From: Microbacteriaceae bacterium VKM Ac-2854
Lineage (GTDB): Bacteria > Actinomycetota > Actinomycetes > Actinomycetales > Microbacteriaceae
Length of the DNA: 63,443 bases
Assembly: GCA_013205085.1 (NCBI GenBank)
Contig: JABMLH010000012.1
Coordinates: 1-63,443 of the forward strand
Direction of reading: 5' to 3'
Shown here: positions 32,646-49,018 of the stretch, one piece after another
Numbering within the stretch: the stretch's first letter is position 1
How the letters are laid out: each line of letters opens with the position of its first letter
The notes under the pieces: generated by a model
Database searches by the model: none
Told to the model about the DNA's origin: nothing
What the model saw: the letters and a program-made list of their open reading frames with translations, nothing else
Made by a program: the position numbers and the translations under genes

Positions 32646-32702
32646 ATGTCGAAAAGTTACCAACGATCGCGTTCTCCGATGGGAAGTCATCCGGATTCAT
32701 CG

Positions 32703-32739
32703 TTGGACGCGATCGGACCCTCGCGCCTAGCGTTGCAGC
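32703..32739 (+). promoter_or_regulatory. promoter of sulfur operon A (leaderless leader ORF)
   Basis: TTGGAC (32703-32708), 19 bp, TAGCGT (32728-32733), 6 nt, ATG at 32740. Operon B has TTGGAC, 19 bp, TACAGT, 6 nt, ATG, so spacing is identical; bases just after the -35 also agree (TTGGACGnnnTCGGA). The predicted start of transcription falls on the ATG of the leader ORF. Confidence 0.6.
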
Positions 32740-32880
32740 ATGACCTCGAGCCGTGCCTCCGTGCGCCCCACGCCCTCCGGCGTGCAGGGCGCCGTTGCGC
32801 GCGCCGAGATGATGATGCGAATGCTCCCGGACAGGAACGGCTACGCGCTGGTGCGCGGATGTTCCTGTCCGATGTCGTAG
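32740..32880 (+). CDS. putative leaderless cysteine leader peptide, operon A
   Basis: A 46-codon ORF with no Shine-Dalgarno, starting MTSSRASVRPTP and ending MRMLPDRNGYALVRGCSCPM-S. Its C-terminus aligns with the leader ORF of operon B: MRM(L/I)xxRN, one-codon gap, A-x-VRGCSCP. A stretch of 22 nt (32850-32871) is identical in the two copies. The tandem Cys-Ser-Cys codons would make ribosomes pause when Cys-tRNA is scarce. Cysteine-codon leader ORFs, some leaderless, are known as sulfur-status attenuators in mycobacteria; this version differs in sequence and sits before organosulfur monooxygenase genes. The stop is 139 nt before the monooxygenase start. Promoter, translation and regulation are inferred. 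Confidence 0.65.
   Translation: MTSSRASVRPTPSGVQGAVARAEMMMRMLPDRNGYALVRGCSCPMS
32828..32871 (+). other. hairpin spanning the Cys codons of leader A
   Basis: CGGACAGGAAC (32828-32838) pairs perfectly with GTTCCTGTCCG (32861-32871). The 3' arm contains the TGT TCC TGT Cys-Ser-Cys codons, so a ribosome pausing there keeps the stem open. The same stem exists in leader B with a G-T wobble. No T-tract follows, so it is not a plain intrinsic terminator. Downstream, 32979-33006 is pyrimidine-rich (CCTCCCTCTCACACCTCC) and could be a Rho loading site. Confidence 0.6.
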
Positions 32881-33019
32881 CTCCCCGCAACGCTGCGCGC
32901 GCCTGATCGGCGCATGCCCTCCGGCCGTCGGGCCGAGCCCTCGGTGCACCCGAGCCGGCCCTTCGCTGCGCCAGAACAGCCTCCCTCTCACACCTCCTTC
33001 TCCCACATAAGGAACATCC

Positions 33020-34183
33020 ATGACCGTCGAGTTCATCTCCGCCATCAACGTCAACGCCGCCAACGAGATCAACGGGCTCACCGACCCGACGATCGACGTC
33101 GCGCACCTGAAGCGCTACTCGCGCATCCTCGAAGACGGCGGATTCGACTACACGCTGGTGCCCTACGGCTCGGCCGGTCACGACCCGTTCACCATCGCTT
33201 CCGCCGTCACGCAGTACACCGAGCACATCAAGCCGATCGTCGCGCTGCGCCCGAACACGATCTACCCGACCGTCGCCGCGAAGGCGCTCGCGACGCTCGA
33301 CCAGCTCTCGAACGGCCGCGCGGTCGTGCACTTCATCGCCGGCGGCAACGATCACGAGCAGGCCCGCGAGGGCGACCGGCTGAACAAGACCGAGCGCTAC
33401 GAGCGTCAGGAGGAGTACATCCGCATCCTCCGCGCCGTCTGGTCGAACACCGAGGCGTTCGACCACGCCGGGAAGTACTACTCCTTCGAGGACTTCGTCT
33501 CCCGCGTCCGCCCCGTCAACGGCGACATCCCGATCTCGGTCGGCGGCTCCAGCGACGACGCCTACCGCCAGGGCGGCGCGCTCGCCGACATCTTCGGCCT
33601 CTGGGGCGAGCCGCTGAAGGACACCCAGGAGCAGATCGACCGCGTCGCCGCCGCCGCGCGGGCCGCCGGTCGCACGGACACCCCGCGCACCTGGGTCACC
33701 TTCCGCCCGATCATCGCCCCGACGGAGGCGCTGGCGTGGGAGAAGGCCCACAACACGCTCGACATCCTCACCAACCGCGCCGAGGGCGCGAAGGGCCTCT
33801 GGGTGCAGAAGCCCGGCGCCGACGGCCCCGCCAACCGCGGCTCGCAGCGACTGCTCGAGATCGCCGACCGCGGCGACCTTCACGACCGCGCCCTCTGGAC
33901 GCCCACCGCGAAGGCCACCGGCGCCCAGGGCGCCTCGACCGCGCTGGTCGGCACGCCCGAGACGGTCGCGGCCGCGATCCTCGACTACATCGACCTCGGT
34001 GCCGACCTGATCTCGATCCGCGGCTACGACAACCTCAACGACGCCGTCGACTACGGCCGCTACATCATCCCGCTGGTGCGCCAGGAGCTCGCCCACCGCG
34101 AGGCCACCGGCCGGCGCGGCGAGGTCGTCGCCCAGCCGCCGCTGGCCGAGGTCGTCCGCGAGCGCGAGCTGGTCGAGGCATGA
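33020..34183 (+). CDS. SsuD-like FMNH2-dependent (alkane)sulfonate-type monooxygenase, copy A
   Basis: A 387-residue luciferase-like monooxygenase of the SsuD group: VEFISAINVNAANEIN, then DYTLVPYGSAGHDPF, the substrate-loop GRAVVHFIAGGNDHEQAREG and C-terminal ISIRGYDNLNDAVDYGRY. Such enzymes use reduced FMN and O2 to cleave C-S bonds of sulfonates or sulfones, releasing sulfite. AAGGA precedes the ATG. It is the first gene after the Cys leader and is 4 bp coupled to the DszC-like gene. A close paralogue starts operon B. The FMNH2 is probably supplied by the reductase at 43897. Substrate not determined. Confidence 0.87.
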   Translation: MTVEFISAINVNAANEINGLTDPTIDVAHLKRYSRILEDGGFDYTLVPYGSAGHDPFTIASAVTQYTEHIKPIVALRPNTIYPTVAAKALATLDQLSNGRAVVHFIAGGNDHEQAREGDRLNKTERYERQEEYIRILRAVWSNTEAFDHAGKYYSFEDFVSRVRPVNGDIPISVGGSSDDAYRQGGALADIFGLWGEPLKDTQEQIDRVAAAARAAGRTDTPRTWVTFRPIIAPTEALAWEKAHNTLDILTNRAEGAKGLWVQKPGADGPANRGSQRLLEIADRGDLHDRALWTPTAKATGAQGASTALVGTPETVAAAILDYIDLGADLISIRGYDNLNDAVDYGRYIIPLVRQELAHREATGRRGEVVAQPPLAEVVRERELVEA

Positions 34184-35358
34184 CGCTGACCGAGGCGCCG
34201 CGCGTGAGCATCGCCGCGCCGGACCTGTCGGATGCGGCGCTCGCCGCGGTCACGGCGAAGCTCGCCGAGACCGCCGAGCACTACGACCGCACCGCGGAGT
34301 TCCCCTGGCAAGGCATCGAGGCCGTGCACGACGCCGGGCTGCTGACGATCGGCATCGCGCCGCAGTACGGCGGGCACACGATCTCGACGCTCGACCTGGT
34401 CCGCGTCTTCGGGGCGCTGGGCAAGGGCGACCCGTCGGTCGCGCTGATCACGGCGATGACCGTGTTCCAGCACCTGTTCCAGGGCATCGCGCCGAGCTGG
34501 CCGGAGGAGCTGTACCGCTCGCTCGTGGCCGACTCGATCGAGAAGCCGCAGCTGCTGAACGCGATCCGGGCGGAACCCGAGTGGGGCGCCCCCGCCCGCG
34601 GCGGCCTGCCGAACACCGTCATCGTGCGCACCGCCGACGGCTGGGTGCTCAACGGCCGCAAGGGATTCGCGACCGGTTCCGAGGGGCTCGCGTACCACCT
34701 GGTCTGGGCCGTGAACCACGACACCGAGTCGGGCGAGCCCGAACTGGCGCACGCGATCGTGCCCGCCACGCTGCCCGGAATCACGATCGAGAAGACCTGG
34801 GACCACCTCGGCCAGCGCGCGACCAGCACGCACGACGTGATCTACGACAACGTCACCATTCCGGCGGAGTACTTCACCGGCGTGCCGGTGTCGCGCATCC
34901 CGCGCGAAACGGGCGGGCCGATCGGGCTCGCGATCACCGCGCTGTACGTCGGCGTCGGCCGCGCGGCGCAGGACTTCTTCGTCCGCTTCGCCAACGAGCG
35001 CATCCCCACCTCGCTCGGCAAGCCGATCGCGACCACCGAGCGGATCCAGTCCGTCGCCGGCGAGATCGAGGCGCAGCTGATCCAGGCGGAGGAGGTGCTC
35101 TTCGGCCTCGCGGCGCGAGCCGATGCGGGCGACCCCGGCGTCGGCGAACGCCTCGTTGTCGCGAAGCTGCTGGCCACCCGCTCCGCCATCGCCGCGGTGC
35201 AGACCGCGGTCGCGGCGCTGGGCAACCCCGGGCTCACCCGGCACAACCCGCTCGAGCGGCACCTGCGCGACCTGCTCGCCTCCCGCGTGCATCCGCCGCA
35301 GGACGACGCGGCCCTGCTCATCGCGGGGCGGCGCTCGCTCGCCACGTACGTTTCCTGA
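34180..35358 (+). CDS. acyl-CoA-dehydrogenase-fold monooxygenase (DszC/SfnB-like), copy A
   Basis: A 392-residue flavoprotein with the acyl-CoA dehydrogenase fold. Landmarks are FPWQGIEAVHDAGLLTIGIA, GDPSVALITAMTVFQH, WVLNGRKGFATGSEGLAY and HNPLERHLRDLLASRVHPPQ. The last segment is typical of the DszC / SfnB / XiaF-type FMN monooxygenases rather than true dehydrogenases; they lack the catalytic Glu of the latter. Probably oxidises a thioether or sulfone with reduced FMN before C-S cleavage by the SsuD-like enzyme. Coupled to its neighbour by ATGA. Confidence 0.85.
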   Translation: MTLTEAPRVSIAAPDLSDAALAAVTAKLAETAEHYDRTAEFPWQGIEAVHDAGLLTIGIAPQYGGHTISTLDLVRVFGALGKGDPSVALITAMTVFQHLFQGIAPSWPEELYRSLVADSIEKPQLLNAIRAEPEWGAPARGGLPNTVIVRTADGWVLNGRKGFATGSEGLAYHLVWAVNHDTESGEPELAHAIVPATLPGITIEKTWDHLGQRATSTHDVIYDNVTIPAEYFTGVPVSRIPRETGGPIGLAITALYVGVGRAAQDFFVRFANERIPTSLGKPIATTERIQSVAGEIEAQLIQAEEVLFGLAARADAGDPGVGERLVVAKLLATRSAIAAVQTAVAALGNPGLTRHNPLERHLRDLLASRVHPPQDDAALLIAGRRSLATYVS

Positions 35359-35398
35359 CCATTCCCATCCCGAAACACCCAGAGGACACAGCATCCCC

Positions 35399-37066
35399 AT
35401 GACGACCACCCGATTCCGACGCTCGTGGAAGGTCGCGACGGCACTCGCCGTCGCCGCCGGCCTGAGCCTCACCGCCTGCTCCGCCGGATCCGACGCGGCA
35501 CCCGCCTCCGACGACGCGACCCCGGTCGCGGGCGGCACGCTGAAGCTCGCCTTCTTCCCCGACAACGCGGCGTTCTCCTGCGTCGACCCGTTCCAGGTCT
35601 ATTGGATCGAGCACCGCACCGTCATCCGCAACTTCGCGGACTCGCTGACCGATCAGGACCCGGAGACCGGCGAGCTCAAGCCGTGGCTCGCGACCGACTG
35701 GAGCGTCAACGACGCCGGCACCGAGTACACCTTCAACCTGCGCGACGACGTCACCTTCTCCGACGGCACGACGTTCGACGCGACCAGCGTGAAGACCGCG
35801 TTCGACAACGACAAGGCGACGCTGGCCACGCTGCCCGCCGCCTACGGCGGGGTCTACCTCTCGGGTTACGACTCGACCGAGGTCGTCGACGACGACACCG
35901 TGGTGGTGAAGTTCGCCACGCCGAACGCGTCGTTCCTGCAGGGCACCTCGACCACCAACCTGGCGATCCTCGCCGCGTCCTCCTACCAGCAGGACCCGAC
36001 CGCCCGCTGCCTCGGCACCGGCCTGATCGGCTCCGGCCCGTTCGTGCTCGACTCCTACACCCCGGGCACCGGCATCGAGCTGTCCAAGCGCGACGGCTAC
36101 GCCTGGGGTTCGGAGCTGCGCGAGAACACCGGTGAGGCGTACCTCGACGGCATCTCGATCACCTACGTTGCCGAGGACAGCGTCCGCGTCGGTCAGCTCA
36201 CCAGCGACGCGATCGACATCGCCTGGGGCCGCAACCCGATCTCCGAGAACGACCAGGCGCTGATCACTTCCGGCGGCGACACCGTCGAGTCGCGCTCGCT
36301 GCCGGGCCCCGCGTACAACTACTACCCGAACGTCGCGGACGGCAAGATCCTCTCCGACGAGAAGGTGCGCCAGGCCGTGCAGAAGGCGATCGACAAGGAG
36401 AGCTACGCCTCCACCGTCTACAGCGCCGACTACCCGGCGGCGACCGGCGTCTACGACACCACCACCCCGTACTACGAGGACCAGTCGAAGGCGATCGCCT
36501 TCGACGAGGACGGCGCCAACGAGCTGCTCGACGAGGCCGGCTGGACGCTGGGCGATGACGGCTACCGCTACAAGGACGGCCAGAAGCTCACGCTGTCGAC
36601 CCCGATCGTGACGCAGTTCGGCTCCGGCGACCAGCTCGTCCAGGACCAGCTCAAGCAGGTCGGCATCGACCTCGAGCTGAACGTGATCACCGCCGCTCAG
36701 CGCAGCGAGGTGCTCAACTCGGGCGACTACGACCTGATCTCGACCTACTACACCCGCGCCGACCCGGGCGTGATCCAGTGGATCATCGACCCGCGCTACG
36801 CCGGTTCGAAGGCGCAGGCCACCAACAACTTCACGGCCGAGCAGGCCACGAAGGTGCAGGCGCTGCTGGATCAGGGCACCGCGACCATCGACCCGACGGC
36901 CCGCGCGGCGGTGTACGCCGAGCTGCAGGACTATCTGATCGACAACGCGCTGGTGTTCCCGTTCGCGGAGCGTGTGCAGACGGTGGGCGTCTCGTCCGCG
37001 GTGCACGGCTTCCGCTTCACCTCCGAGGCGTTCGGCGACTTCGCCGGCGTCTGGCTGCAGAAGTAA
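35399..37066 (+). CDS. Dpp-type ABC importer substrate-binding lipoprotein, copy A
   Basis: A 555-residue SBP_bac_5 protein. Signal peptide (FRRSWKVATALAVAAGLSLT) with lipobox LTAC at about 23-26, so anchored outside. Mature start GGTLKLAFFPDNAAFSCVD. In this family it can bind peptides, but here it sits between a sulfur monooxygenase pair and Dpp-type permeases, so an organosulfur ligand is likely. Most of the protein, including the AFSCVDPFQVYWIEHRTVIR block, matches the copy-B protein at 47336. The downstream 140 bp contains a repeat and a hairpin that may lower expression of the permeases relative to it. Confidence 0.9.
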   Translation: MTTTRFRRSWKVATALAVAAGLSLTACSAGSDAAPASDDATPVAGGTLKLAFFPDNAAFSCVDPFQVYWIEHRTVIRNFADSLTDQDPETGELKPWLATDWSVNDAGTEYTFNLRDDVTFSDGTTFDATSVKTAFDNDKATLATLPAAYGGVYLSGYDSTEVVDDDTVVVKFATPNASFLQGTSTTNLAILAASSYQQDPTARCLGTGLIGSGPFVLDSYTPGTGIELSKRDGYAWGSELRENTGEAYLDGISITYVAEDSVRVGQLTSDAIDIAWGRNPISENDQALITSGGDTVESRSLPGPAYNYYPNVADGKILSDEKVRQAVQKAIDKESYASTVYSADYPAATGVYDTTTPYYEDQSKAIAFDEDGANELLDEAGWTLGDDGYRYKDGQKLTLSTPIVTQFGSGDQLVQDQLKQVGIDLELNVITAAQRSEVLNSGDYDLISTYYTRADPGVIQWIIDPRYAGSKAQATNNFTAEQATKVQALLDQGTATIDPTARAAVYAELQDYLIDNALVFPFAERVQTVGVSSAVHGFRFTSEAFGDFAGVWLQK

Positions 37067-37206: not shown

Positions 37207-38223
37207 ATGGCCACGATCGCCATCGCGCCGAAGGCGAGCCGCCCCACGGCGGCCCGCGGCGCCCGATACGGACTCGCCCGGTACATCCTCGGCCGCGTCG
37301 GCCAGGCCGTGCTCGTGCTCTGGGCCGCCTACACGGTGACCTTCGCGGTGCTCTGGCTGCTGCCGAGCGACCCGCTGGCGCTGCTGCTCTCGGCCAACAA
37401 CGTCGAGGTCGACTCGCTCAGCCCGACGCAGCTGGCGGATGCGCAGGCGCAGTACGGCCTGGACAAGCCGGTCTGGCTGCAGTACTTCACCATGCTGGGC
37501 CACGCCCTGCAGGGTGACTTCGGCACCTCCATCACCAAGGGGATCCCTGTCACCGAGTTGATCTCGCAGCGCCTGCCCGGCACGGTGCAGCTGAGCGTGC
37601 TCGCGATCGTGATCGCGCTGGTCTCGGGCGTCGCCATCGCCTACCTCGCCGCCTTCGTGCAGTGGAAGCCGGCGAAGGTGTTCCTGAACCGGCTGCCCTC
37701 CGTCGGCGTCGCGTTCCCCTCCTTCTGGATCGGCCTGCTGCTGATCCAGGTCTTCGCCTTCACGCTGCACCTGCTGCCGTCGACCGGTCAGAACGGGCCG
37801 GAGTCGCTGATCCTGCCGGCGGTGACCATGGCGATCCCGACCTCGGCGGTCTTCGCCCAGGTGCTCTCGCGCTCCTTCGCCGACACGCTGGGCGAGGCGT
37901 ACATCACCACCGCCCGGGCGAAGGGCCTCTCGCGCTCGGCCATCCAGTGGAAGCACGCCTTCCGCAACGCGGCGCTGCCGACCCTGACCATCCTCGGCCT
38001 GCTGGTCGGCTCGACCGTGACCGGCGCGATCGTCACCGAGACGATCTTCGCCCGCCAGGGCATCGGCACGCTGGCGCAGGAGTCGGTGCTGACGCAGGAC
38101 GTGCCGGTGGTGCAGGCCATCGTGGTGCTCGCCGCCGCCGCCTTCGTTGTGGTCAACCTCATCGTCGACCTCCTCTATCCGCTGCTCGACCCGCGCATCA
38201 CCCACACCCCGAAGGTGAGCTGA
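37207..38223 (+). CDS. Dpp-type ABC permease 1 (DppB-like)
   Basis: A 338-residue membrane protein with six helices. N-terminal YILGRVGQAVLVLWAAYTVT followed by the periplasmic loop SVEVDSLSP-type region, then a BPD_transp_1 core. The EAA-type loop is GEAYITTARAKGLSRSAIQW. AAGGAG precedes the ATG. Pairs with the following DppC-like permease (2 bp gap). Confidence 0.92.
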   Translation: MATIAIAPKASRPTAARGARYGLARYILGRVGQAVLVLWAAYTVTFAVLWLLPSDPLALLLSANNVEVDSLSPTQLADAQAQYGLDKPVWLQYFTMLGHALQGDFGTSITKGIPVTELISQRLPGTVQLSVLAIVIALVSGVAIAYLAAFVQWKPAKVFLNRLPSVGVAFPSFWIGLLLIQVFAFTLHLLPSTGQNGPESLILPAVTMAIPTSAVFAQVLSRSFADTLGEAYITTARAKGLSRSAIQWKHAFRNAALPTLTILGLLVGSTVTGAIVTETIFARQGIGTLAQESVLTQDVPVVQAIVVLAAAAFVVVNLIVDLLYPLLDPRITHTPKVS

Positions 38224-38225
38224 CC

Positions 38226-39131
38226 ATGACCCTCGAACTGACTCGCGAGACCGTGACGGAGACGGTGCCGACGGCGCCGGTCGCCGAGAAGGGCGGCCAC
38301 GGCCGCTCCGCCCGACGCATCGCCACCGCCCGCGCGCTGCTGCGCCGCCCCGGCTTCGTGGTGGCCCTAGCGTTCGTGATCTTCGTGCTCGTCTCGGCGG
38401 TCGCGCCCGCGCTGTTCACGGGCTACGACCCGAACGCGACAGCGCCGGCGGACAAGCTGCTCGCGCCGAACCTCGCGCATCCGTTCGGCACCGACGAACT
38501 GGGCCGCGACCTGTTCGCCCGGGTGCTGCACGGCGGCGCGCTGACGATCCAGGCCACGCTGCTGGCCATCGTGATCGCCCTCGTCGCCGGCCTCGTGCTC
38601 GGGGTGGTCTCCGGCTTCTTCGGCGGCTGGATCGACGCCGTGGTGATGCGTGTGGTCGACGTGCTGCTCGCCATCCCCGGCCTGTTGCTCGCCCTGGCAA
38701 TCGTCACCGCGATCGGCTTCGGCACCATCCCGGTCGCGATCGCGGTCGGTGTCGGCATCGTGCCCGGCTTCGCCCGCACCACGCGCGCCGAGGTGCTGCG
38801 GGTGAAGACGCTGCCCTACGTCGAGGCGGCGCGCACCGGCGGCGCCTCCTGGCTGCGCGTGCTGGTGAAGCACGTGCTGCCGAACTCCTGGGGCCCCGTC
38901 ACGGTGCTCGCCGTGCTCGACTTCGGCGCCGCGATCATCGCGGTCGCCGCCCTGAGCTTCCTCGGCTTCGGCGCAGCGCCGCCCGCCGCCGAGTGGGGCA
39001 CCCTGATCTCCAACGGCCGCAACTTCCTGGTCACCAGCCCGTGGCTCTCGCTGCTGCCCGGCCTGTTCGTGGGCCTGCTGGTCTTCGGCCTGAACCACAT
39101 CTCCAAGACGATCGAAGAGGTGCAGCGATGA
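38226..39131 (+). CDS. Dpp-type ABC permease 2 (DppC-like)
   Basis: A 301-residue permease. Cytoplasmic start followed by PGFVVALAFVIFVLVSAVAP, then the typical HPFGTDELGRDLFARVLHG and the EAA-type loop LPYVEAARTGGASWLRVLVK. Overlaps the ATPase by 4 bp (ATGA at 39128). Confidence 0.93.
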   Translation: MTLELTRETVTETVPTAPVAEKGGHGRSARRIATARALLRRPGFVVALAFVIFVLVSAVAPALFTGYDPNATAPADKLLAPNLAHPFGTDELGRDLFARVLHGGALTIQATLLAIVIALVAGLVLGVVSGFFGGWIDAVVMRVVDVLLAIPGLLLALAIVTAIGFGTIPVAIAVGVGIVPGFARTTRAEVLRVKTLPYVEAARTGGASWLRVLVKHVLPNSWGPVTVLAVLDFGAAIIAVAALSFLGFGAAPPAAEWGTLISNGRNFLVTSPWLSLLPGLFVGLLVFGLNHISKTIEEVQR

Positions 39132-40795
39132 CCGCCGCAGCGTTCACCCCCACCGCGTCCACCCCCATCGTGCAGATCTCGGGCCTCGAGGTCCGCTACG
39201 GCCGCGACAAGAAGACGGCCAAGCCGGCCGTGCACGACGTGTCGCTCACGATCGCACCGGGCGAGGTCGTCGCCGTCGTCGGCGAGTCGGGCTCCGGCAA
39301 GACGACCACCGCGAACGCCGTGATCGGGCTGCTGCCGACCAACGGTCACGTCACCGCGGGGTCGATCCACATCGACGGCGTTGCCATTTACTCTGCGGAA
39401 AAGGGTACCCACGCCTCCGACAAGGAGCTGCGGAAGATCCGCGGGCGCGTGGTGGGGCTGGTGCCGCAGGACCCGATGGTCGGGCTCAACCCGACGCAGC
39501 GGGTCGGCACCCAGGTGGCCGAGGCCGTGAAGCTGCGTGGTGTGCCGAAGCCCTCGGTGGATGCGGAGGTCCTGGTCGCCTTGCAAGATGCGGGCATCGA
39601 CGACCCGGAGCTGCGCGCCGGTCAGTACCCGCACGAACTGTCCGGGGGCCTGCGCCAGCGCGTGCTGATCGCGATCGCGCTCGCCGGGCATCCGAAGCTG
39701 ATCATCGCCGACGAGCCGACCTCGGCCCTCGACGTGACGGTGCAGAAGCGCATCCTCGATCACCTGCAGCACCTGGTCGCCGAGCGCGGCATCTCGCTGC
39801 TGATCATCACGCACGACCTCGCCGTCGCCGCCGATCGCGCCGACCGCGTGCTGGTGATGCAGCAGGGCCTCGTCGTCGAGGCCGGCGCGCCGAGCGAGAT
39901 CCTGGTCGCCCCGCGCGAGGCCTACACGAAGCAGCTGATCGCCGCCGCCCCGGGCCTCGGCCACGGCGGCGAGGTGCAGCCGCGCTACACCACCGTGGAG
40001 GATGCGCCGGAAATTCTGCGGATCGACAACGTCACCAAGGAGTTCGCGCTGCCGGGCGGCCGCGAGCCGTTCCGCGCGCTGGACGACGTCTCGTTCTCCA
40101 TCCGCGCCGGGCAGACCCTCGCGATCGTGGGGGAGTCGGGCTCCGGCAAGACCACCGCGCTGCGGGTCGCGCTGGGCCTGGAGAAGCCGACCTCGGGATC
40201 CGTCTTCTTCGAGGGCGAGGACATCACACACGCGAGCTGGAAGCAGTGGCGCCCGCTGCGCCGCCGCGTGCAGCTGGTGCACCAGAACCCGTTCGCCGCC
40301 CTCGACCCGCGCTTCACCGTGCTGGAGAGCGTCGTCGAGCCGCTGGTCTCGTTCCGGATCGGGGACCGGGCCAGCCGGCTCGCCCGCGCGAAGGAACTGC
40401 TGGACCGCGTCGGGCTGCCCGAGTCGTTCCTGTCCCGGCTGCCCGCCGAGCTCTCCGGCGGCCAGCGCCAGCGCGTGGCCATCGCCCGCGCGCTCTCCGT
40501 CGGCCCCGAGCTGGTGCTGTTGGACGAGCCGGTCTCGGCGCTCGACGTCTCGGTACAGGCGCAGATCCTGGAGCTGCTGGTGGAGCTGCAGCGCGAGCTC
40601 GGCGTCTCGTACCTGTTCATCTCGCACGACCTCGCGGTCGTCGCGCAGGTCTCGCACCGGGTCGCCGTGCTGAACAAGGGCCGCGTCGAGGAGCAGGGCA
40701 CCACCGCCTCCGTCTTCGCGGATCCGCAACAGAAGTACACACAAGCCCTGCTCGCCGCCATCCCGGGGCGCGCTCGTGAGAAGGTCGACAAATGA
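39128..40795 (+). CDS. fused Dpp-type ABC ATPase (DppD-DppF in one chain)
   Basis: A 555-residue protein containing two complete nucleotide-binding domains. Domain 1: Walker A GESGSGKTT (about 50), signature LSGGLRQR, Walker B IIADEPTSALD. Domain 2 after a linker near residue 290: Walker A GESGSGKTT, signature LSGGQRQR, Walker B VLLDEPVSALD. Each has an H-loop. The usual DppD and DppF are here one polypeptide. It powers the importer of the two upstream permeases. Coupled to the next gene by ATGA at 40792. Confidence 0.92.
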   Translation: MTAAAFTPTASTPIVQISGLEVRYGRDKKTAKPAVHDVSLTIAPGEVVAVVGESGSGKTTTANAVIGLLPTNGHVTAGSIHIDGVAIYSAEKGTHASDKELRKIRGRVVGLVPQDPMVGLNPTQRVGTQVAEAVKLRGVPKPSVDAEVLVALQDAGIDDPELRAGQYPHELSGGLRQRVLIAIALAGHPKLIIADEPTSALDVTVQKRILDHLQHLVAERGISLLIITHDLAVAADRADRVLVMQQGLVVEAGAPSEILVAPREAYTKQLIAAAPGLGHGGEVQPRYTTVEDAPEILRIDNVTKEFALPGGREPFRALDDVSFSIRAGQTLAIVGESGSGKTTALRVALGLEKPTSGSVFFEGEDITHASWKQWRPLRRRVQLVHQNPFAALDPRFTVLESVVEPLVSFRIGDRASRLARAKELLDRVGLPESFLSRLPAELSGGQRQRVAIARALSVGPELVLLDEPVSALDVSVQAQILELLVELQRELGVSYLFISHDLAVVAQVSHRVAVLNKGRVEEQGTTASVFADPQQKYTQALLAAIPGRAREKVDK

Positions 40796-42563: not shown

Positions 42564-43894
42564 CCCTGGTCTCGCCGGCCCCCGTCTTCGACCTCGGCGC
42601 GCTGACGCTGGCGCGCGTGGATCGCTCGGGCTGGACGCCCGGCGGCGAGCCGCGCGGCGTCGTGCGGGCCACGACCGTGGCGGAGGTGCAGCAGACGCTG
42701 GCCTACGCGAACGAGCATGGCATCCCCGTCGTTACGCGCGGCGCCGGTTCCGGGCTTGCGGGTGCCGCCAGCGCGGGCGAGGGCGCGATCGTGCTCGACC
42801 TGTCGGGCCTGAACCGGATCCTCTCGATCGACGCCGTCGACGGTATCGCTCGCGTCGAGCCCGGCGTGATCACGGCCGACCTCGACCGCGCGGCGGCCGA
42901 GCACGGCCTGTTCTACGCGCCCGACCCGGGCAGCGTCGAGATCTCGACCATCGGCGGCAACATCGCCACCAACGCCGGCGGCCTGCGCGGCGCCAAGTAC
43001 GGGGTGACCCGGGACGCGGTGCTCGCGCTGGACGTGGTGCTCGCGGACGGTTCGCTGATCCGCGTCGGCCGCGAGACCGTGAAGGGTGTGGTCGGCCTCG
43101 ACCTGACCGCGCTGATCGTGGGCTCCGAGGGCACGCTCGGCGTCGTCGTCGGCGCGACGGTGCGGCTGCTGCCGCGGCCGAAGCACGTCGCGACCGCCGC
43201 CGCCTACTTCGCCGACGTCACCGCCGGGGCGGAGGCGTCCATCGCCCTCGCGCTGGCCGGACTGCGCCCCAGCGTGATCGAGCTCGTCGACGGCAAGACC
43301 CTCGGCGCGATCGATGCGCTGCGCGGCACCGACTACGCGGTCCGCGGCGGGGCGTTCCTGCTGGTGCAGACCGACGGCTTCGGCGCGGAGGCGGAGATCG
43401 CCGCCGTCGCCGAGGTGCTTGCGCTCACGGCGACGGGTGTCGAGACCACGCTGGACCCGGCCGTGGGACTGCTGCTCTCCTCCGCCCGGCGCGACGCGCT
43501 GCCCTCGATCGAGGCGCGCGGTCGGGTGCTGATCGAGGACATCGCGGTGCCGCGTTCGCGCCTCGCCGAGGCGATCCGCCGCGTCCACGGCATCGCGGCG
43601 GAGACCGGAGCCGACATCTACGTGTTCGCGCACGCGGGCGACGGCAATCTGCATCCGATCATCCGGCTGCGCGATGACAGCGAGGCCGCGGCTGCTCAGG
43701 CGCACCGCGCCGCGGAGGCGATCTTCGCGCTCGCCCTCGAATTCGGCGGCACCGTCAGCGCCGAGCACGGCATCGGCGGCTTGAAGCGCGAGTGGGCCCG
43801 GCGCGAGTTGGGCGCGGAGGTCGTCGAACTCCAGCGCCGCCTGCAGGCCGTGTTCGATCCGAACGGCATCCTCAATCCCGGAAAGGCACTCTGA
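42560..43894 (+). CDS. FAD-binding 2-hydroxy-acid oxidase/dehydrogenase (GlcD type)
   Basis: A 444-residue flavoprotein of the VAO/PCMH family. FAD-binding GVVRATTVAEVQQTLAYANE and VVTRGAGSGLAGAASA, IGGNIATNAGGLRGAKYG, and C-terminal VFAHAGDGNLHPII with EHGIGGLKREW. Oxidises a 2-hydroxy acid such as glycolate or lactate. Together with the preceding PanE-like enzyme and hydrolase it suggests that the desulfonation product is a short C2-C3 acid. Start in the ATGA overlap. Confidence 0.9.
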   Translation: MTLVSPAPVFDLGALTLARVDRSGWTPGGEPRGVVRATTVAEVQQTLAYANEHGIPVVTRGAGSGLAGAASAGEGAIVLDLSGLNRILSIDAVDGIARVEPGVITADLDRAAAEHGLFYAPDPGSVEISTIGGNIATNAGGLRGAKYGVTRDAVLALDVVLADGSLIRVGRETVKGVVGLDLTALIVGSEGTLGVVVGATVRLLPRPKHVATAAAYFADVTAGAEASIALALAGLRPSVIELVDGKTLGAIDALRGTDYAVRGGAFLLVQTDGFGAEAEIAAVAEVLALTATGVETTLDPAVGLLLSSARRDALPSIEARGRVLIEDIAVPRSRLAEAIRRVHGIAAETGADIYVFAHAGDGNLHPIIRLRDDSEAAAAQAHRAAEAIFALALEFGGTVSAEHGIGGLKREWARRELGAEVVELQRRLQAVFDPNGILNPGKAL

Positions 43895-43896
43895 TC

Positions 43897-44553
43897 ATGA
43901 GCCTGGAACAACCCGGCACCGACGCATTGCGCGTCGTCGCCGTCATCGGCAGCCTGCACAGCCCCTCCAAGACCGAGGTGCTGGTCGAGGCCATCCTGAC
44001 TTCGCTGGCCGACGCGCTGCCGATCGACGTGCACATCGTGCGCATCGGCGAGATCGGGCCGCAGTTCGCCGGCGCGTTCTACCGATCGCAGCTGCCCGAC
44101 ACCGTCGAGCAGGAGTTGCGCCGGATCGAGGAGGCGGAGCTGCTCGTCGTCGCGACCCCGGTGTACCGCGCCTCCTTCACCGGACTGTTCAAGCACCTGT
44201 TCGACTTCGTCGAGCAGTACGCGCTGGTGGACACGCCGGTGCTGCTCGCGGCGACGGGCGGCAGCGAGCGGCACGCGCTGATCCTGGAGCACCAGCTGCG
44301 CCCGCTGTTCGGCTTCTTCCAGGCGCTGACCCTGCCGCTGGGCGTGTACGCCCACGACCGCGACTTCGAGAACTACGTGATCACCTCGCCGCTGCTGCAG
44401 GAGCGCATCGGCAACGCGATCCGCCGCGGCCTGCCGCTGATCCGCTCCTCCATCGTGGAGCGCGAGCGGCTCGAGCGCGTGCTCTCGGAGGGCGGCGACG
44501 AACTCGCCGCGGCGGCCCCCGCGGGCGGCGCCCCGGTGCGGCTATACAGCTAG
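43897..44553 (+). CDS. NAD(P)H:FMN reductase (MsuE/SsuE-type)
   Basis: A 218-residue flavodoxin-fold reductase. FMN phosphate-binding loop VAVIGSLHSPSKTEVLVEAI at residues about 14-34 and AELLVVATPVYRASFTGLFK. It supplies reduced FMN to two-component monooxygenases such as the SsuD-like and DszC-like enzymes in both operons; operon B has no reductase of its own. GGAAAGG precedes the ATG, 2 bp after the oxidase stop. Last gene of operon A. Confidence 0.88.
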   Translation: MSLEQPGTDALRVVAVIGSLHSPSKTEVLVEAILTSLADALPIDVHIVRIGEIGPQFAGAFYRSQLPDTVEQELRRIEEAELLVVATPVYRASFTGLFKHLFDFVEQYALVDTPVLLAATGGSERHALILEHQLRPLFGFFQALTLPLGVYAHDRDFENYVITSPLLQERIGNAIRRGLPLIRSSIVERERLERVLSEGGDELAAAAPAGGAPVRLYS

Positions 44554-44700: not shown

Positions 44701-44737
44701 TTGGACGTCGTCGGATGGCCGACAATACAGTGTGAAT
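44701..44737 (+). promoter_or_regulatory. promoter of sulfur operon B (leaderless leader ORF)
   Basis: TTGGAC (44701-44706), 19 bp, TACAGT (44726-44731), 6 nt, ATG at 44738. Spacing is the same as at 32703 before operon A, so the transcript would start at the leader ATG. Confidence 0.6.
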
Positions 44738-44863
44738 ATGAACCCGATCCGTGTTGAGAAGAACCGCGCATTCCGCGCGCGCGCTCAGTGGATGGGTATG
44801 CGGATGCGAATGATCGAGGGCAGGAACCACGCGTCGGTGCGCGGATGTTCCTGTCCGGCCTGA
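44738..44863 (+). CDS. putative leaderless cysteine leader peptide, operon B
   Basis: A 41-codon ORF without Shine-Dalgarno. It starts MNPIRVEKNRAF and ends MRMIEGRNHASVRGCSCP-A. The terminal 20 residues align with the operon A leader, while the first half does not, which indicates selection on the C-terminal peptide (or on the RNA) rather than recent duplication of the whole ORF. Both leaders have several in-frame ATGs in the middle (MGMRMRM here), so internal starts are possible. The stop lies 88 nt before the monooxygenase start. Confidence 0.65.
   Translation: MNPIRVEKNRAFRARAQWMGMRMRMIEGRNHASVRGCSCPA
44818..44856 (+). other. hairpin spanning the Cys codons of leader B
   Basis: GGGCAGGAAC (44818-44827) pairs with GTTCCTGTCC (44847-44856), with one G-T wobble. 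It is the counterpart of the perfect stem at 32828-32871. The loop differs by one codon. Downstream of the stop, 44864-44930 is pyrimidine-rich (CACTCTCTTTCGCGATCTTC). Confidence 0.6.
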
Positions 44864-44951
44864 TCTTCGCACTCTCTTTCGCGATCTTCTTCGCAACATT
44901 CCGACACATTTCGTCATCTCATTCTTCTGCGCTTGAAAAGAGCAATTCCCT

Positions 44952-46118
44952 ATGCCTATCGATACCCCCGAGGTCGAATTCATCAGCCTCATCAACGTCC
45001 GCGAATCCAGCGAGCTGAAGCCCAATCCGGGTAGCGGCATCGACGTGCCCTATCTGAAGCGCTACGCCCGCGCTCTGGAGGACGGCGGCTTCGACTACAC
45101 GCTGGTCGCCTACAACTCGAACAGCTACGACCCCTTCACCGTCGCGACCGCCGTCACCCAGGTCACCGAGCGGATCAAGCCGATCGTCGCGCTGCGACCG
45201 AACACCGTGTATCCGACCGTCGCCGCCCAGGCGCTGGCGACCCTCGACCAGCTCTCCGGCGGCCGGGCCGTCACCCACATCATCTCGGGCGGCAGCCAGG
45301 AGGAGCAGGCGCGCCAGGGCGACCACACCACCAAGGAGCAGCGCTACGACCGCTCGGAGGAGTACGTCGAGATCCTCAAGCGCGCGTGGAGCGAGACGGA
45401 GGCGTGGAGCTACGCGGGGGAGTACTACCAGTTCGAGGACTTCGGCCCGGGCTTCCCCACCGTCAATGGCACCATCCCGGTCTCCGTCGGCGGCTCCTCC
45501 GACGCGGCGTACCGGGTCGGCGGCCGGCTCGGCGACATCTTCGGCCTGTGGGGCGAGCCGCTCGCCGACACGAAGCAGCAGATCGACCGCGTCGCGGCGG
45601 AGGCCCGTAAGGCCGGCCGGATCGACACGCCGCGCACCTGGGTCACCTTCCGCCCGATCGTCGCGGCGACGGATGAACTGGCGTGGGAGAAGGCGCAGCG
45701 CACGATCGCGACGGTTGAGCAGACCTACCAGGCCGGCACCTTCCGCGGGCGCAAGCTGACGGATCCGTCGCGCCCGCAGAACGTCGGCTCGCAGCGTCTG
45801 CTCGACATCGCCTCGCGACAGGACGTGCACGATCGTGCCCTGTGGACCCGCCCGGCGCAGGTGACCAATGCCGGCGGCGCCTCGACCGCCCTGGTCGGCA
45901 GCTATGAGACCGTGGCCGCCGCCATCCTCGACTACGTCGATCTCGGCGCGAGCCTGGTCTCGATCCGCGGCTACGACAACCTCAATGACGCCATCGACTA
46001 CGGCCGCTACGTGCTGCCACTGGTGCGCGAGGAGCTGGCGCACCGCACGGCGACCGGCCGCCGCGGCGAGGTGGTGGTGCAGCCGCCGCTGGAGCAGCTC
46101 GCCCAGGCCCGCGCATGA
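44952..46118 (+). CDS. SsuD-like FMNH2-dependent monooxygenase, copy B
   Basis: A 388-residue paralogue of the protein at 33020, alignable over its whole length (VEFISLINVRESSELKPNP, DYTLVAYNSNSYDPF, GRAVTHIISGGSQEEQARQG, SIRGYDNLNDAIDYGRY). The two differ most in the N-terminal substrate loop and around residues 250-275, so they may have different substrates. The Shine-Dalgarno is weak (AAAGAG). Coupled by ATGA to the next gene. FMNH2 must come from another locus, probably 43897. Confidence 0.87.
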   Translation: MPIDTPEVEFISLINVRESSELKPNPGSGIDVPYLKRYARALEDGGFDYTLVAYNSNSYDPFTVATAVTQVTERIKPIVALRPNTVYPTVAAQALATLDQLSGGRAVTHIISGGSQEEQARQGDHTTKEQRYDRSEEYVEILKRAWSETEAWSYAGEYYQFEDFGPGFPTVNGTIPVSVGGSSDAAYRVGGRLGDIFGLWGEPLADTKQQIDRVAAEARKAGRIDTPRTWVTFRPIVAATDELAWEKAQRTIATVEQTYQAGTFRGRKLTDPSRPQNVGSQRLLDIASRQDVHDRALWTRPAQVTNAGGASTALVGSYETVAAAILDYVDLGASLVSIRGYDNLNDAIDYGRYVLPLVREELAHRTATGRRGEVVVQPPLEQLAQARA

Positions 46119-47311
46119 GTGTGCTCGCGCCCACGATCGTCGCCCCCGATCTCTCGGACGCCGCGCTGGCGAGGGTCACCGCTCGCCTCGCGGAGACCGC
46201 CGAGGAGTACGACCGCAGCGGCGCGTTCCCGTGGCAGGGGATCCAGGCCGTGCACGAGGCCGGCCTGCTCAGGCTCGGCATCGGGAAGCGCTACGGCGGG
46301 CCCGGCCTCAGCGCGGTCGACGGCGTGCGCGTCTTCGAGGCGCTCGGCGCGGGCGATCCGTCCGTCGCGCTGATCACCGCGATGACGGTGTTCCAGCACG
46401 CGCGTCAGGACGCTTCGTCGGTCTGGCCCGAGGAGCTCTACCGCTCGCTCGTCGCCGAATCGGCCGAGCGGCCGCGACTGTTGAACGCCATCCGCGCCGA
46501 GCCCGAGTGGGGCGCCCCGGCCCGCGGCGGCCTGCCCGCCACGATCGTCCGCCGCACGGCGGACGGCTGGCTGCTCAACGGTCACAAGGGCTTCGCGACC
46601 GGCTCGGAGGGCCTGGCCTACCACCTGGTCTGGGCCGTCGACCACGATGCGGCGTCGGGTGAGCCCGAGCTGGCGCACGCGATCGTGCCGGCGGATGCGC
46701 CGGGTATCGAGATCGTGCGCACCTGGGACCATCTGGGCCAGCGCGCGACCAGCACCCACGACGTGATCTACACCGACGTCGCGATCCCGCTCGAGAACTT
46801 CCAGGGTGTGCCCGCCTCGACCATCTCGGCCGAACGCAGCAATGTCTCGGGGCTCGGCGCGGTGTCGCTCTACGTCGGGGTCGCCCGCGCGGCGCAGCGG
46901 TTCTTCGTGCGGTTCGCGAACGAGCGCCGACCGACCTCGCTCGGCAAGCCGATCGCGACCACCGAACGGATCCAGTCGGTCGCGGGCGAGATCGAGGCGC
47001 AGCTGGTCCAAGCCGAGGAACTGCTGCTCGGCCTCGCCACCCGGATCGACGCGGGCGACGAGAGCGTCGGCGAGCGCCTGGTCGTCGCGAAGTTGCTGGC
47101 TACGCGCAGCGCCGTCACGGCGGTGCAGACCGCGGTCGCGGCTCTCGGCAATCCCGGGCTCACGAGGCACAACCCGCTGGAGCGGCACCTGCGCGACGTG
47201 CTCGCGTCGCGCGTGCATCCGCCCCAGGACGATGCGGCGCTGCTGATCGCGGGGCGCCGCTCGCTCGCGACCTCGCCAGCCCTGAACCCTTCCCTTTCCC
47301 CGTCCCACTGA
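46115..47311 (+). CDS. acyl-CoA-dehydrogenase-fold monooxygenase, copy B
   Basis: A 398-residue paralogue of 34180, with shared blocks FPWQGIQAVHEAGLLRLGIG, GDPSVALITAMTVFQH, WLLNGHKGFATGSEGLAY and HNPLERHLRDVLASRVHPPQ. The region 265-275 (VSRIPRETGG in A, STISAERSNVSG in B) and a Ser/Pro-rich C-terminal tail differ. Probably works with the SsuD-like copy B. Starts in the ATGA overlap. Confidence 0.85.
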   Translation: MSVLAPTIVAPDLSDAALARVTARLAETAEEYDRSGAFPWQGIQAVHEAGLLRLGIGKRYGGPGLSAVDGVRVFEALGAGDPSVALITAMTVFQHARQDASSVWPEELYRSLVAESAERPRLLNAIRAEPEWGAPARGGLPATIVRRTADGWLLNGHKGFATGSEGLAYHLVWAVDHDAASGEPELAHAIVPADAPGIEIVRTWDHLGQRATSTHDVIYTDVAIPLENFQGVPASTISAERSNVSGLGAVSLYVGVARAAQRFFVRFANERRPTSLGKPIATTERIQSVAGEIEAQLVQAEELLLGLATRIDAGDESVGERLVVAKLLATRSAVTAVQTAVAALGNPGLTRHNPLERHLRDVLASRVHPPQDDAALLIAGRRSLATSPALNPSLSPSH

Positions 47312-47335: not shown

Positions 47336-49018
47336 ATGACCAGCACACCCCGACCTCGACGCCACCAACGACACCGACGCCGCTGGCAGGCCGCGACCGC
47401 GGTCGCCGTGGCCGCCGCCTTCGCCCTCACCGCGTGCGCGGGCGGCAGCTCCGCCGAGCCGAGCGCCTCCGCCTCCGCCGAGACCCCGCAGGAGGGCGGC
47501 CGGCTGAAGCTCGCCTTCTGGCCCGACAACGCGGCGTTCTCCTGCGTCGATCCGTTCCAGGTCTACTGGATCGAGCACCGCACCGTGATCCGCAACTTCG
47601 CGGACTCGCTGACCGACCAGGATCCCGAGACCGGCGAGATCACGCCGTGGCTCGCCACGGACTGGTCCATCAACGATGCGGGCACCGAGTACACCTTCAA
47701 TCTGCGCGACGACGTGACCTTCTCCGACGGTACGACGTTCGACGCGAACAGCGTGAAGACGGCGTTCGACAACGACAAGGCGACCGCCGCCGCCGTGCCC
47801 GGCGCCTTCGGCGCGAGCTACATCGCGGGCTACGACTCGACCGAGGTCGTCGACGACGACACGGTGATCGTGAAGTTCGCCACCCCGAACGCCGCGTTCC
47901 TGCAGGCGACCTCGACCACGACGCTGGCCGTCCTGGCGCCGTCCTCCTACGCGCAGACGCCCGAGCAGCGTTGCCTCGGCGAGGGCGTCATCGGCTCCGG
48001 TCCGTTCACGCTCGACAGCTACGTGCCGGGCACCTCGCTCTCGCTGACCAAGCGGGATGGCTACGCCTGGGGATCGGAGTTGCGGGCGCACACGGGAGCG
48101 GCGTACCTCGACGTCAGCTACGTGGCGGAGGACAGCGTCCGGGTCGGTCAGCTGACCAGCGACGCGGTCGACATCGCCTGGCCACGCAACCCCTTCACCG
48201 AGAACGATCAGGCGCTGATCACCGCGGGCGGCGACAGCATCGAGAGCCGTTCGCTGCCGGGCCCCGCGTCGAACTACTACCCGAACACCAGCGCGGGCCA
48301 CGTGCTCGCGGATCCGGATGTGCGCACCGCCGTGCAGAAGGCGCTCGACCTGGAGAGCTACGCCTCCACGATCTACGGCGCCGACTACCCGGTCGTCTCG
48401 AGTGTCTTCGACACCACGACTCCGGGCTACGAGGACGAGTCGGCGCTGCTGGCCCACGATGCGAAGGGTGCGGCGAAGCTGCTGGACGACGCGGGCTGGG
48501 CCCTCGGCGACGACGGCTACCGGAGCAAGGACGGCCAGAAGCTGACCCTCTCCATCCCCGTCAGCGCTGCCCTGCCGGGCGACCAGCTCGTGCAGGACCA
48601 GCTCAAGGCCGTCGGCATCGACGTCGAGCTGAACGTGATCACCGCTGCACAGCGCAGCGAGGTGCTCAGCTCGGGCGAGTACGACCTGATCGGCTCGTAC
48701 CTCACCCGCGCCGACCCGTCCGTGATCCAGTCGATCATCGACAGTCGCTACGCGACGTCGAAGGCGCTCGCGGCGAACCTGCTCACACCGGAGCAGTCGG
48801 CGACGGTGCAGGGCCTGATCGACGAGGGTACAACGACCATCGATCAGACCGCGCGGGCGAAGGTCTACGCGGAGCTGTCGAGCTACCTGCTGGAGAACGC
48901 CCTGGTCTTCCCGACCTTCGAGCGCGTGCAGCTGGCCGGTTTCTCCTCGGCCGTGCACGGCTTCCGCTACACCTCGGAGGCTTTCGGCGACTTCGCCGAT
49001 ACGTGGCTCGAACAGTAA
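47336..49018 (+). CDS. Dpp-type ABC substrate-binding lipoprotein, copy B (no cognate permeases)
   Basis: A 560-residue SBP_bac_5 lipoprotein with an Arg/His-rich start (PRPRRHQRHRRRWQ), a hydrophobic core and lipobox LTAC. The mature chain is closely similar to that of copy A (AFSCVDPFQVYWIEHRTVIR, LRDDVTFSDGTTFDANSVKT). Operon B has no permease or ATPase, so this protein probably delivers ligand to the operon A importer. No clear Shine-Dalgarno. Confidence 0.88.
   Translation: MTSTPRPRRHQRHRRRWQAATAVAVAAAFALTACAGGSSAEPSASASAETPQEGGRLKLAFWPDNAAFSCVDPFQVYWIEHRTVIRNFADSLTDQDPETGEITPWLATDWSINDAGTEYTFNLRDDVTFSDGTTFDANSVKTAFDNDKATAAAVPGAFGASYIAGYDSTEVVDDDTVIVKFATPNAAFLQATSTTTLAVLAPSSYAQTPEQRCLGEGVIGSGPFTLDSYVPGTSLSLTKRDGYAWGSELRAHTGAAYLDVSYVAEDSVRVGQLTSDAVDIAWPRNPFTENDQALITAGGDSIESRSLPGPASNYYPNTSAGHVLADPDVRTAVQKALDLESYASTIYGADYPVVSSVFDTTTPGYEDESALLAHDAKGAAKLLDDAGWALGDDGYRSKDGQKLTLSIPVSAALPGDQLVQDQLKAVGIDVELNVITAAQRSEVLSSGEYDLIGSYLTRADPSVIQSIIDSRYATSKALAANLLTPEQSATVQGLIDEGTTTIDQTARAKVYAELSSYLLENALVFPTFERVQLAGFSSAVHGFRYTSEAFGDFADTWLEQ

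Follow-up and report, generated by a model that had tools for sequence, protein, structure and literature searches.

Probable cysteine-responsive leader ORFs under a conserved leaderless-type promoter before organosulfur-type operons of Rathayibacter and other actinomycetes

The DNA analyzed here (the window) is a 63,443-nucleotide stretch of the genome of Microbacteriaceae bacterium VKM Ac-2854, which we count as Rathayibacter; the genes and ORFs listed below with window positions are on the forward strand. It contains two short ORFs of leaderless type, each lying before an operon that starts with an LLM-class monooxygenase gene. Leader A (positions 32740 to 32880) has 46 codons, translates to MTSSRASVRPTPSGVQGAVARAEMMMRMLPDRNGYALVRGCSCPMS, and ends in the tail VRGCSCPMS. 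Leader B (44738 to 44863, from the ATG to the end of the stop codon) has 41 codons, translates to MNPIRVEKNRAFRARAQWMGMRMRMIEGRNHASVRGCSCPA, and ends in VRGCSCPA. Leader A is preceded by a -35 element, TTGGAC (32703 to 32708), and a -10 element, TAGCGT (32728 to 32733), with 19 bp between the two hexamers and 6 nt between the second hexamer and the ATG. The initial annotation had described this arrangement and reported a second copy before operon B, and both observations stood when the coordinates were rechecked. The layout of leader B is indeed the same, its TTGGAC (44701 to 44706) and TACAGT (44726 to 44731) being 19 bp apart and the latter 6 nt from the ATG.

The promoter elements, all on the forward strand, were assigned because they are conserved; a standard sigma-70 scan, which found no promoter-like site in the region of either leader, lends no support. 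We searched for the pattern TTGGACN{17,20}TANNNTN{5,7}ATG, using the same pattern read backwards as a control. The strain's own 4.75-Mb genome gave two matches, leaders A and B (control, none), and the 15 Rathayibacter genomes gave 16, of which 15 were leaders (control, two). From the position of the promoter, transcription would start at the leader ATG. The one match that is not a leader lies at G011:C2:89226-89264. Full-length leader A had no match among the NCBIfam and Pfam profiles, and neither did the 23-aa tails of leaders A and B in NCBIfam. The Rfam 15 covariance models produced three matches between positions 28000 and 50000 (E, 0.21 to 0.55), all far below their gathering scores and none at a leader, and a scan for defence families matched nothing.

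Operon A begins with the LLM-class monooxygenase gene (33020 to 34183), assigned from profiles and structure matches. The enzyme had been called SsuD-like, and it is indeed SsuD/SfnG/MsuD-like; its identity as SsuD was not confirmed, since it scored 174.6 bits against a cut-off of 518.2 (SfnG, 142 bits against 382.95). Among solved structures, the chains closest to it are those of alkanesulfonate, dimethylsulfone, and methanesulfonate monooxygenases. Profiles further indicated an acyl-CoA-dehydrogenase-fold flavoprotein (34180 to 35358), with the SfnB and desulfinase models among the best three, all below cut-off; a frame containing a family-5 solute-binding protein, the true start of which lies further in (35123 to 37066; TIGR04028 closest, below cut-off); an ABC transporter permease of the oligopeptide/nickel type (37207 to 38223); a frame with a double ABC ATPase (38993 to 40795); and an MsuE-type FMN reductase (43792 to 44553; TIGR03566, above cut-off). 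Operon B starts with a second LLM-class monooxygenase gene (44952 to 46118), and an acyl-CoA-dehydrogenase-fold flavoprotein (46115 to 47311) and a family-5 solute-binding protein (47336 to 49018) were recognized in it by the same means. The uptake system belongs to the peptide/nickel type, and the usual sulfonate uptake system to another. By family assignment, it is plausible that the targets of the leaders are operons for the uptake and breakdown of organosulfur compounds, with C-S-cleaving enzymes.

No CysD match was found in the strain's own genome, the control being positive in 10 of 14 genomes. A search of this genome for sirohaem reductases with the NIR_SIR model returned a single match, NirB (L134, G000:C13:14946-18962), whose frame is open for about 490 codons further upstream. 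As no dedicated sulfite reductase was seen in this search, the organism may rely on sulfur in organic or reduced form. Sulfite set free by an SsuD-like enzyme would either be handled by NirB or another route, or the substrate would give a more reduced product; the lack of an evident path from sulfite to cysteine counts against the cysteine attenuation proposed below.

A 23-aa leader query run against 15 Rathayibacter genomes (E≤1) had matches in 14 of them; on reading, 15 leaders were accepted as true in 13 genomes, the strain's own and G010 having two and every other leader-bearing genome one. The two spurious matches (L003 and L016) were dropped. In all 15 leaders, the reading frame is intact over lengths of 41 to 57 codons, an in-frame ATG lies 37 or 38 nt from TTGGAC (in L017, where another in-frame ATG is found 6 nt upstream, we used the one at 37 nt), the -10 element ends 6 to 7 nt before the ATG, and the cysteine pair stands 3 to 7 codons 5' of the stop. 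VRGCSCP is invariant across leaders of the A and B types, the DNA of the tail is nearly so, and the N-terminal part is variable. The longer motif proposed initially therefore holds in part: its VRGCSCP end is present in 15/15 leaders, while its RN element, found in both window copies, is replaced in the relatives by DGN, GGN, DGK, or DGS. An LLM gene is present in 12 of the 15 genomes (E≤1e-120). Two genomes (G002 and G003) have neither leader nor LLM gene; in G005, a leader is accompanied by an LLM gene whose alignment is split between two frames. Judging from these comparisons, the promoter-leader unit is specific and is co-inherited with the LLM gene. The leaders of L048, L049, L057, L058, L062, L104, and L105 are identical to seven of the 15 and were not taken as extra evidence; L048/L105, from Microbacteriaceae bacterium VKM Ac-2855, are likewise counted as Rathayibacter.

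The tail motif was then sought in 398 genomes of the family. At E≤0.1, 85 genomes had a match, and E fell below 1e-9 in eight, all Rathayibacter. The expectation that the motif would be found at related operons was thus borne out within this genus, where the strong matches lie, and not elsewhere, the motif being absent from orthologous operons of other genera. None of 22 weaker loci (L026 to L047) proved on reading to be a leader, and a promising tail match in G263, FRKQFAPVRGCECPAQT, was rejected as one arm of an inverted repeat 3' of another gene. The Subtercola-type leader of G400 gave no strong match to the Rathayibacter tail profile; its peptide differs, and its cysteine cluster is kept. 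In a phylum-wide search, one genome of 396, the strain's own, was found at E≤1e-130.

We also surveyed the DNA upstream of 61 loci encoding LLM relatives, applying a strict rule: TAnnnT 6 to 7 nt before an ATG or GTG, a length of 15 to 60 codons, and at least two cysteines in the last 10 codons. Such an ORF lies upstream of the LLM gene in 7/7 Rathayibacter loci from six genomes (0.00 expected from shuffles), in 6/30 loci of other actinomycetes (0.05 expected), and in 0/24 alphaproteobacterial loci (0.06 expected). The six belong to Cellulomonas (L050, L052, and L053), Subtercola (L051 and L056), and Kineosporia (L060), and TTGGACG is kept in five of them, L060 having CTGGACA. Further cysteine leaders under the same kind of promoter were seen in a Subtercola-like locus (L121), with the Cellulomonas group (L126), and with the Kineosporia group (L127 and L128), L060 and L127 carrying one and the same leader. 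The distance of 6 to 7 nt from the -10 element to the ATG recurs in all of these (L050 to L053, L056, L060, L121, and L126 to L128). The leaderless layout, the cysteine leader, and the two organosulfur-type targets described for the window therefore hold up in its relatives.

What the leaders share as peptides across genera is clustered cysteine near the stop. The last 12 codons hold two to five cysteines in L050 to L053, L056, L060, and L061, and contiguous runs occur in L050, L053, L060, and L126 to L128, whereas Rathayibacter has Cys-Ser-Cys and no run. Tails outside Rathayibacter include CCCR, CRCSC, CLCR, and GCCCRC, and that of Cellulomonas marina reads RGCPCP. Four non-Rathayibacter actinomycete loci passed a looser test only, namely Subtercola L061 and three from Rhodococcus (L066, L069, and L070). 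L061, like L122, has a cysteine tail but lacks the leaderless promoter; the Rhodococcus candidates have UGC at the last two cysteines and no promoter match.

No cysteine leader was found at Kineosporia L091 and L129, both Aeromicrobium loci, or the Microbacterium loci scanned, and no acceptable one at L123, L129, or L130; Cellulomonas L059, for which 338 nt of upstream DNA are available, has no ORF conforming to the strict rule. Candidates at L063 and L064 were not taken, ending 339 and 393 nt upstream and having no promoter match, and that of L068 is doubtful (GTG start, mixed codons). Those of L108 and L130 lie inside the upstream gene, which in L108 is sulfurtransferase-like by eye. In four loci without a cysteine leader (L054, L055, L074, and L108), the LLM gene is closely preceded by a gene resembling, by eye, a thiosulfate/mercaptopyruvate sulfurtransferase and may therefore not head its operon. 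At L123 (G263:C90), TTGGACG stands shortly before the LLM gene, with no TAnnnT at the usual distance and no cysteine ORF.

The cysteine codons themselves are kept, and they are nearly always UGU: 29 of 30 in the last 12 codons of the Rathayibacter leaders and, counted over seven loci from three other genera (L050 to L053, L056, L060, and L061), 21 of 23. In the genes of the window, as called by a GC3 rule that may have a few frames wrong, TGT accounts for 7 of 106 cysteine codons, and in genes of the same loci it accounts for 2/40 in Rathayibacter, 3/41 in Cellulomonas, 4/17 in Subtercola, and 2/17 in Kineosporia. The enrichment in Rathayibacter has a Fisher p of 7e-22, computed on related loci that are not independent; with one locus per lineage, leaving out the UGC-bearing Rhodococcus candidates as well as L053 and L056, p is 6.5e-14. 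This bias, together with the hairpin and the C-rich spacer described below, adds to what the initial annotation had observed.

Fold prediction places a hairpin over the cysteine codons of both window leaders. In leader A, its 5' arm is GGACAGGAAC (32829 to 32838) and its 3' arm GTTCCTGTCC (32861 to 32870), the latter holding most of the Cys-Ser-Cys codons TGT TCC TGT (32860 to 32868); in leader B, the arms are at 44818 to 44827 and 44847 to 44856, both hairpins on the forward strand. Ten outer pairs are predicted to enclose the cysteine codons in Rathayibacter, and similar structures were predicted in Subtercola and Cellulomonas marina. The z scores range from -1.24 to -4.18 in the 15 Rathayibacter loci, with the single-sequence prediction for L007 favoring another fold, and L050, L053, and L060 have cysteine clusters without this hairpin. 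In an alignment of 19 stretches, the pairs were kept in 95.5% of cells, compared to 37 to 69% when the structure was slid. Covariation did not go beyond shuffles, with one compensatory change in 15 pairs, a count reached by 152 of 500 shuffles. Removing the repeats L010, L011, and L012 (16 of 19 stretches left) gave the same 95.5% and 152/500. For these alignments, L002, L017, L051, L056, and L121 were trimmed by 3 to 6 bases at the 5' end, and L056 was counted as aligned, although pairing in a shifted register is also possible for it. A hairpin over the cysteine codons agrees with these data but is not proven by them, and its 3' arm may be kept for its codons alone.

The spacer between leader and monooxygenase gene is rich in C and poor in G. 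That of leader A (32881 to 33019, forward strand) has 65 C and 33 G in 139 nt, which puts it in the top 0.35% for C/G and the top 0.30% for C minus G among windows of equal length on both strands; by this composition, it is a candidate Rho loading region. Spacer B (44864 to 44951, forward strand), ranked in the same way, has 29 C and 11 G in 88 nt (top 0.13% and 1.4%). C/G is 1.63 to 2.64 in 15/15 Rathayibacter loci; 21 other upstream regions of the window, some of which overlap coding DNA, have a median of 1.19 and a range of 0.60 to 1.71, overlapping the lowest leader spacers. A terminator scan of the two regions found nothing terminator-like around leader A; around leader B, its single hit lies within the leader on the minus strand, the coding strand having none. 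Neither leader is thus followed by the intrinsic terminator of a classical attenuator, and both have 3' of their stop the C-rich, G-poor untranslated stretch of a tnaC-like Rho attenuator.

The cysteine codons close to the stop, the use of rare codons, the leaderless entry, and the sulfur-type targets together point to ribosome-mediated attenuation. Since orthologous operons in three genera have Cys-clustered leaders of their own, sensing of cysteine is favored over a conserved peptide. We consider it likely that the leaders are ribosome-mediated cysteine attenuators and represent a variant form of the leaderless polycysteine ORFs known from mycobacteria. The promoter position, reading frame, cysteine clustering, UGU choice, target operons, and spacer composition are established at the level of sequence, and from them we infer that the leaders are translated, that cysteine is the signal, and that control runs as follows. 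RNA polymerase would start at the A of the leader ATG, and ribosomes, needing no Shine-Dalgarno sequence (SD), would load at the 5' end and translate the 41 to 57 codons up to the cysteine pair. When Cys-tRNA is ample, the ribosome would pass the cysteine codons, terminate, and leave; the hairpin would close, and the naked C-rich, G-poor spacer would invite termination before the monooxygenase gene, most likely by Rho. When Cys-tRNA is short, the ribosome would wait at UGU-UCC-UGU by the stop, hold the hairpin open, and keep the message coupled to the polymerase, so that the organosulfur operon would be expressed. The last step is a guess, and we rate Rho at slightly below even chances. Of a spacer of 88 to 350 nt, a stalled ribosome would cover no more than the beginning, and plain occlusion of Rho is therefore insufficient as a switch; ribosome-polymerase coupling, or the open hairpin, would have to supply the rest. 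Pairing of the hairpin 5' arm with the spacer, as in an anti-rut element, showed no trend (z, -1.55 to 1.38, with a window fitted to operon-A type leaders and a few bases out of place in L002, L017, and the Subtercola loci). The 3' arm with the whole spacer gave z from -1.03 to 2.31, the exception being L052 at -4.23, and no alternative arm-spacer pairing common to the loci was found.

Alternatively, the SD of the monooxygenase gene could be held in pairing by the 3' part of the leader and released when a ribosome stalls on the cysteine codons. Such translational attenuation, which has been reported for M. smegmatis (PMC13236596, as far as its available text goes), has support in leader A: GGATGTTCCT (32857 to 32866) is the exact reverse complement, over 10 nt, of AGGAACATCC, the SD and adjoining spacer before the LLM ATG (33010 to 33019, forward strand). 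The duplex of 3' arm and SD has z from -1.9 to -2.9 in 5 of 18 loci (L001, L002, L015, L017, and L052), both window copies among them. In 11 of the 18, however, z is above 0, no better than shuffled sequence. The 10-nt complement is not kept in the relatives, whose SD is mostly AAAGGACC or similar, and it is missing even from the closest one, L004, where z is -0.44 though its genome, G010, encodes a 97% identical LLM protein. In 25 of 27 loci, moreover, the predicted accessibility of the SD shifts by no more than 0.10 when the cysteine region is masked, the two exceptions being L001, where it falls, and L068, with its doubtful leader, where it rises. An erm-like anti-SD switch was set aside for this loss of pairing and, since the five loci named above retain it, is kept as a rival that we hold to be unlikely. 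Rho was preferred for the last step of the cysteine attenuator because SD accessibility is nearly unchanged and the pairing of cysteine region and SD is mostly at chance level.

We regard it as very improbable that the VRGCSCP end arrests the ribosome as a nascent peptide in response to cysteine oxidation, zinc, or a thiol ligand. The invariance of VRGCSCP in all 15 Rathayibacter leaders would fit such an arrest, but the tail DNA is kept as well, so the invariant peptide need not mean a peptide function. In addition, the choice of UGU acts at the level of the codon and not of the peptide, and beyond Rathayibacter clustered cysteine alone is shared, the RGCPCP of Cellulomonas marina notwithstanding. 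The chances are slighter still that the ORF is fortuitous and that an operator, a promoter, or a structured 5' untranslated region explains the conserved bases. Near invariance of the tail DNA, strong conservation upstream, and the hairpin z scores of the 15 Rathayibacter loci speak for this reading; against it, the frame survives many length changes in 15/15 leaders, the excess of Cys-tailed leaderless-type ORFs in other actinomycetes (6/30 against 0.05 expected) has to be accounted for, and the cysteine clusters of L050, L053, and L060 occur without that hairpin. Least probable of all is a small functional peptide that binds a metal or thiol instead of acting in cis, for although CxC and its flanking residues are conserved in the genus, the ORF lies directly before the LLM operons there and is missing from the two genomes without the operon, its N-terminal part and length vary, and it matches no family.

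The closest known counterparts of the proposed cysteine attenuators are the leaderless polycysteine short ORFs of mycobacteria (Canestrari et al. 2020, as presented in the available parts of PMC9031893, PMC9094748, and PMC13236596), for which leaderless cysteine ORFs at cysA2, Rv0485, and nirA had been reported earlier (PMC4633059, in part). According to these sources, they share with the leaders described here the leaderless start, the short ORF, the terminal cysteine codons, and the first position in a sulfur operon. They differ in having a contiguous run instead of the UGU-UCC-UGU of Rathayibacter. The present leaders are also distinct in belonging to other actinomycete families, in preceding an LLM organosulfur-type target, and in having a hairpin over the cysteine codons and a C-rich spacer; they also show a preference for UGU. 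The mycobacterial ORFs are described as masking the SD, which is possible in both window copies and is not a shared feature here. The candidate leader peptides of cys/cbs operons in Mycobacterium, Propionibacterium acnes, and Bifidobacterium (Seliverstov et al. 2005, PMC1262725) are similar, as far as the portion consulted describes them, in their cysteine runs near the stop, the lack of a terminator hairpin, and the suggestion of Rho, although their targets are other than LLM operons; their authors call their own Rho sites unconserved and the prediction weak, and a leaderless start is not mentioned in that portion. The available text on the uORFC-8-2 motif before Rhodobacterales cysS (PMC8632094) likewise places cysteine codons within the stem of a leader uORF, but there UGC dominates, an intrinsic terminator is present, and the hosts are alphaproteobacteria. 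The metL leader of metNIQ in Streptomyces lividans (PMC8079986, in part) is leaderless, with terminal cysteines (CMCRRMC) and no clear terminator, but it is assigned to methionine and differs in target and peptide. In bacilli, the leader before an alkanesulfonate transporter is, in the part of PMC2965389 available, an ABC-leader with a terminator and not a cysteine ORF. A search of mainly open-access literature yielded no cysteine leader before LLM or alkanesulfonate operons.

Cysteine attenuation at these loci would widen the range of ribosome-mediated cysteine sensing beyond mycobacteria, to Microbacteriaceae, Cellulomonas, and Kineosporia, as well as to organosulfur scavenging, with cysteine codons and promoter kept across genera while the peptide is not. 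We more tentatively suggest, as a reading with perhaps one chance in three, that cysteine attenuators are deliberately built on the rare, wobble-read UGU codon, that the UGU cluster by the stop is the slowest point at low Cys-tRNA, that codon choice sets the threshold, and that the signal is passed through Rho rather than the SD in several actinomycete families. If true, this would be a codon-specific cysteine sensor in which a single conserved TTGGAC/TAnnnT promoter drives differing leader peptides at orthologous organosulfur operons. The question raised is whether a swap of UGU for UGC alters the sensitivity of an attenuator when a single tRNA reads both codons.

Upstream of leader A, two inverted half-sites, CCAACGAT (32660 to 32667) and ATCGTTGG (32699 to 32706), the latter overlapping the -35 element, are nearly invariant across the 13 operon-A type Rathayibacter loci, the exceptions being L012 (CCAATGAT) and L010 (GTCGTTGG). 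They are a candidate operator. In five Rathayibacter loci (L049, L057, L058, L062, and L104), a LysR-type gene lies directly 5' of the operon. In the window and L048, that position is taken by a histidine kinase/response regulator pair instead, and a 73% ortholog of the LysR gene is found at a separate site of the strain's own genome (C11:756458-757306).
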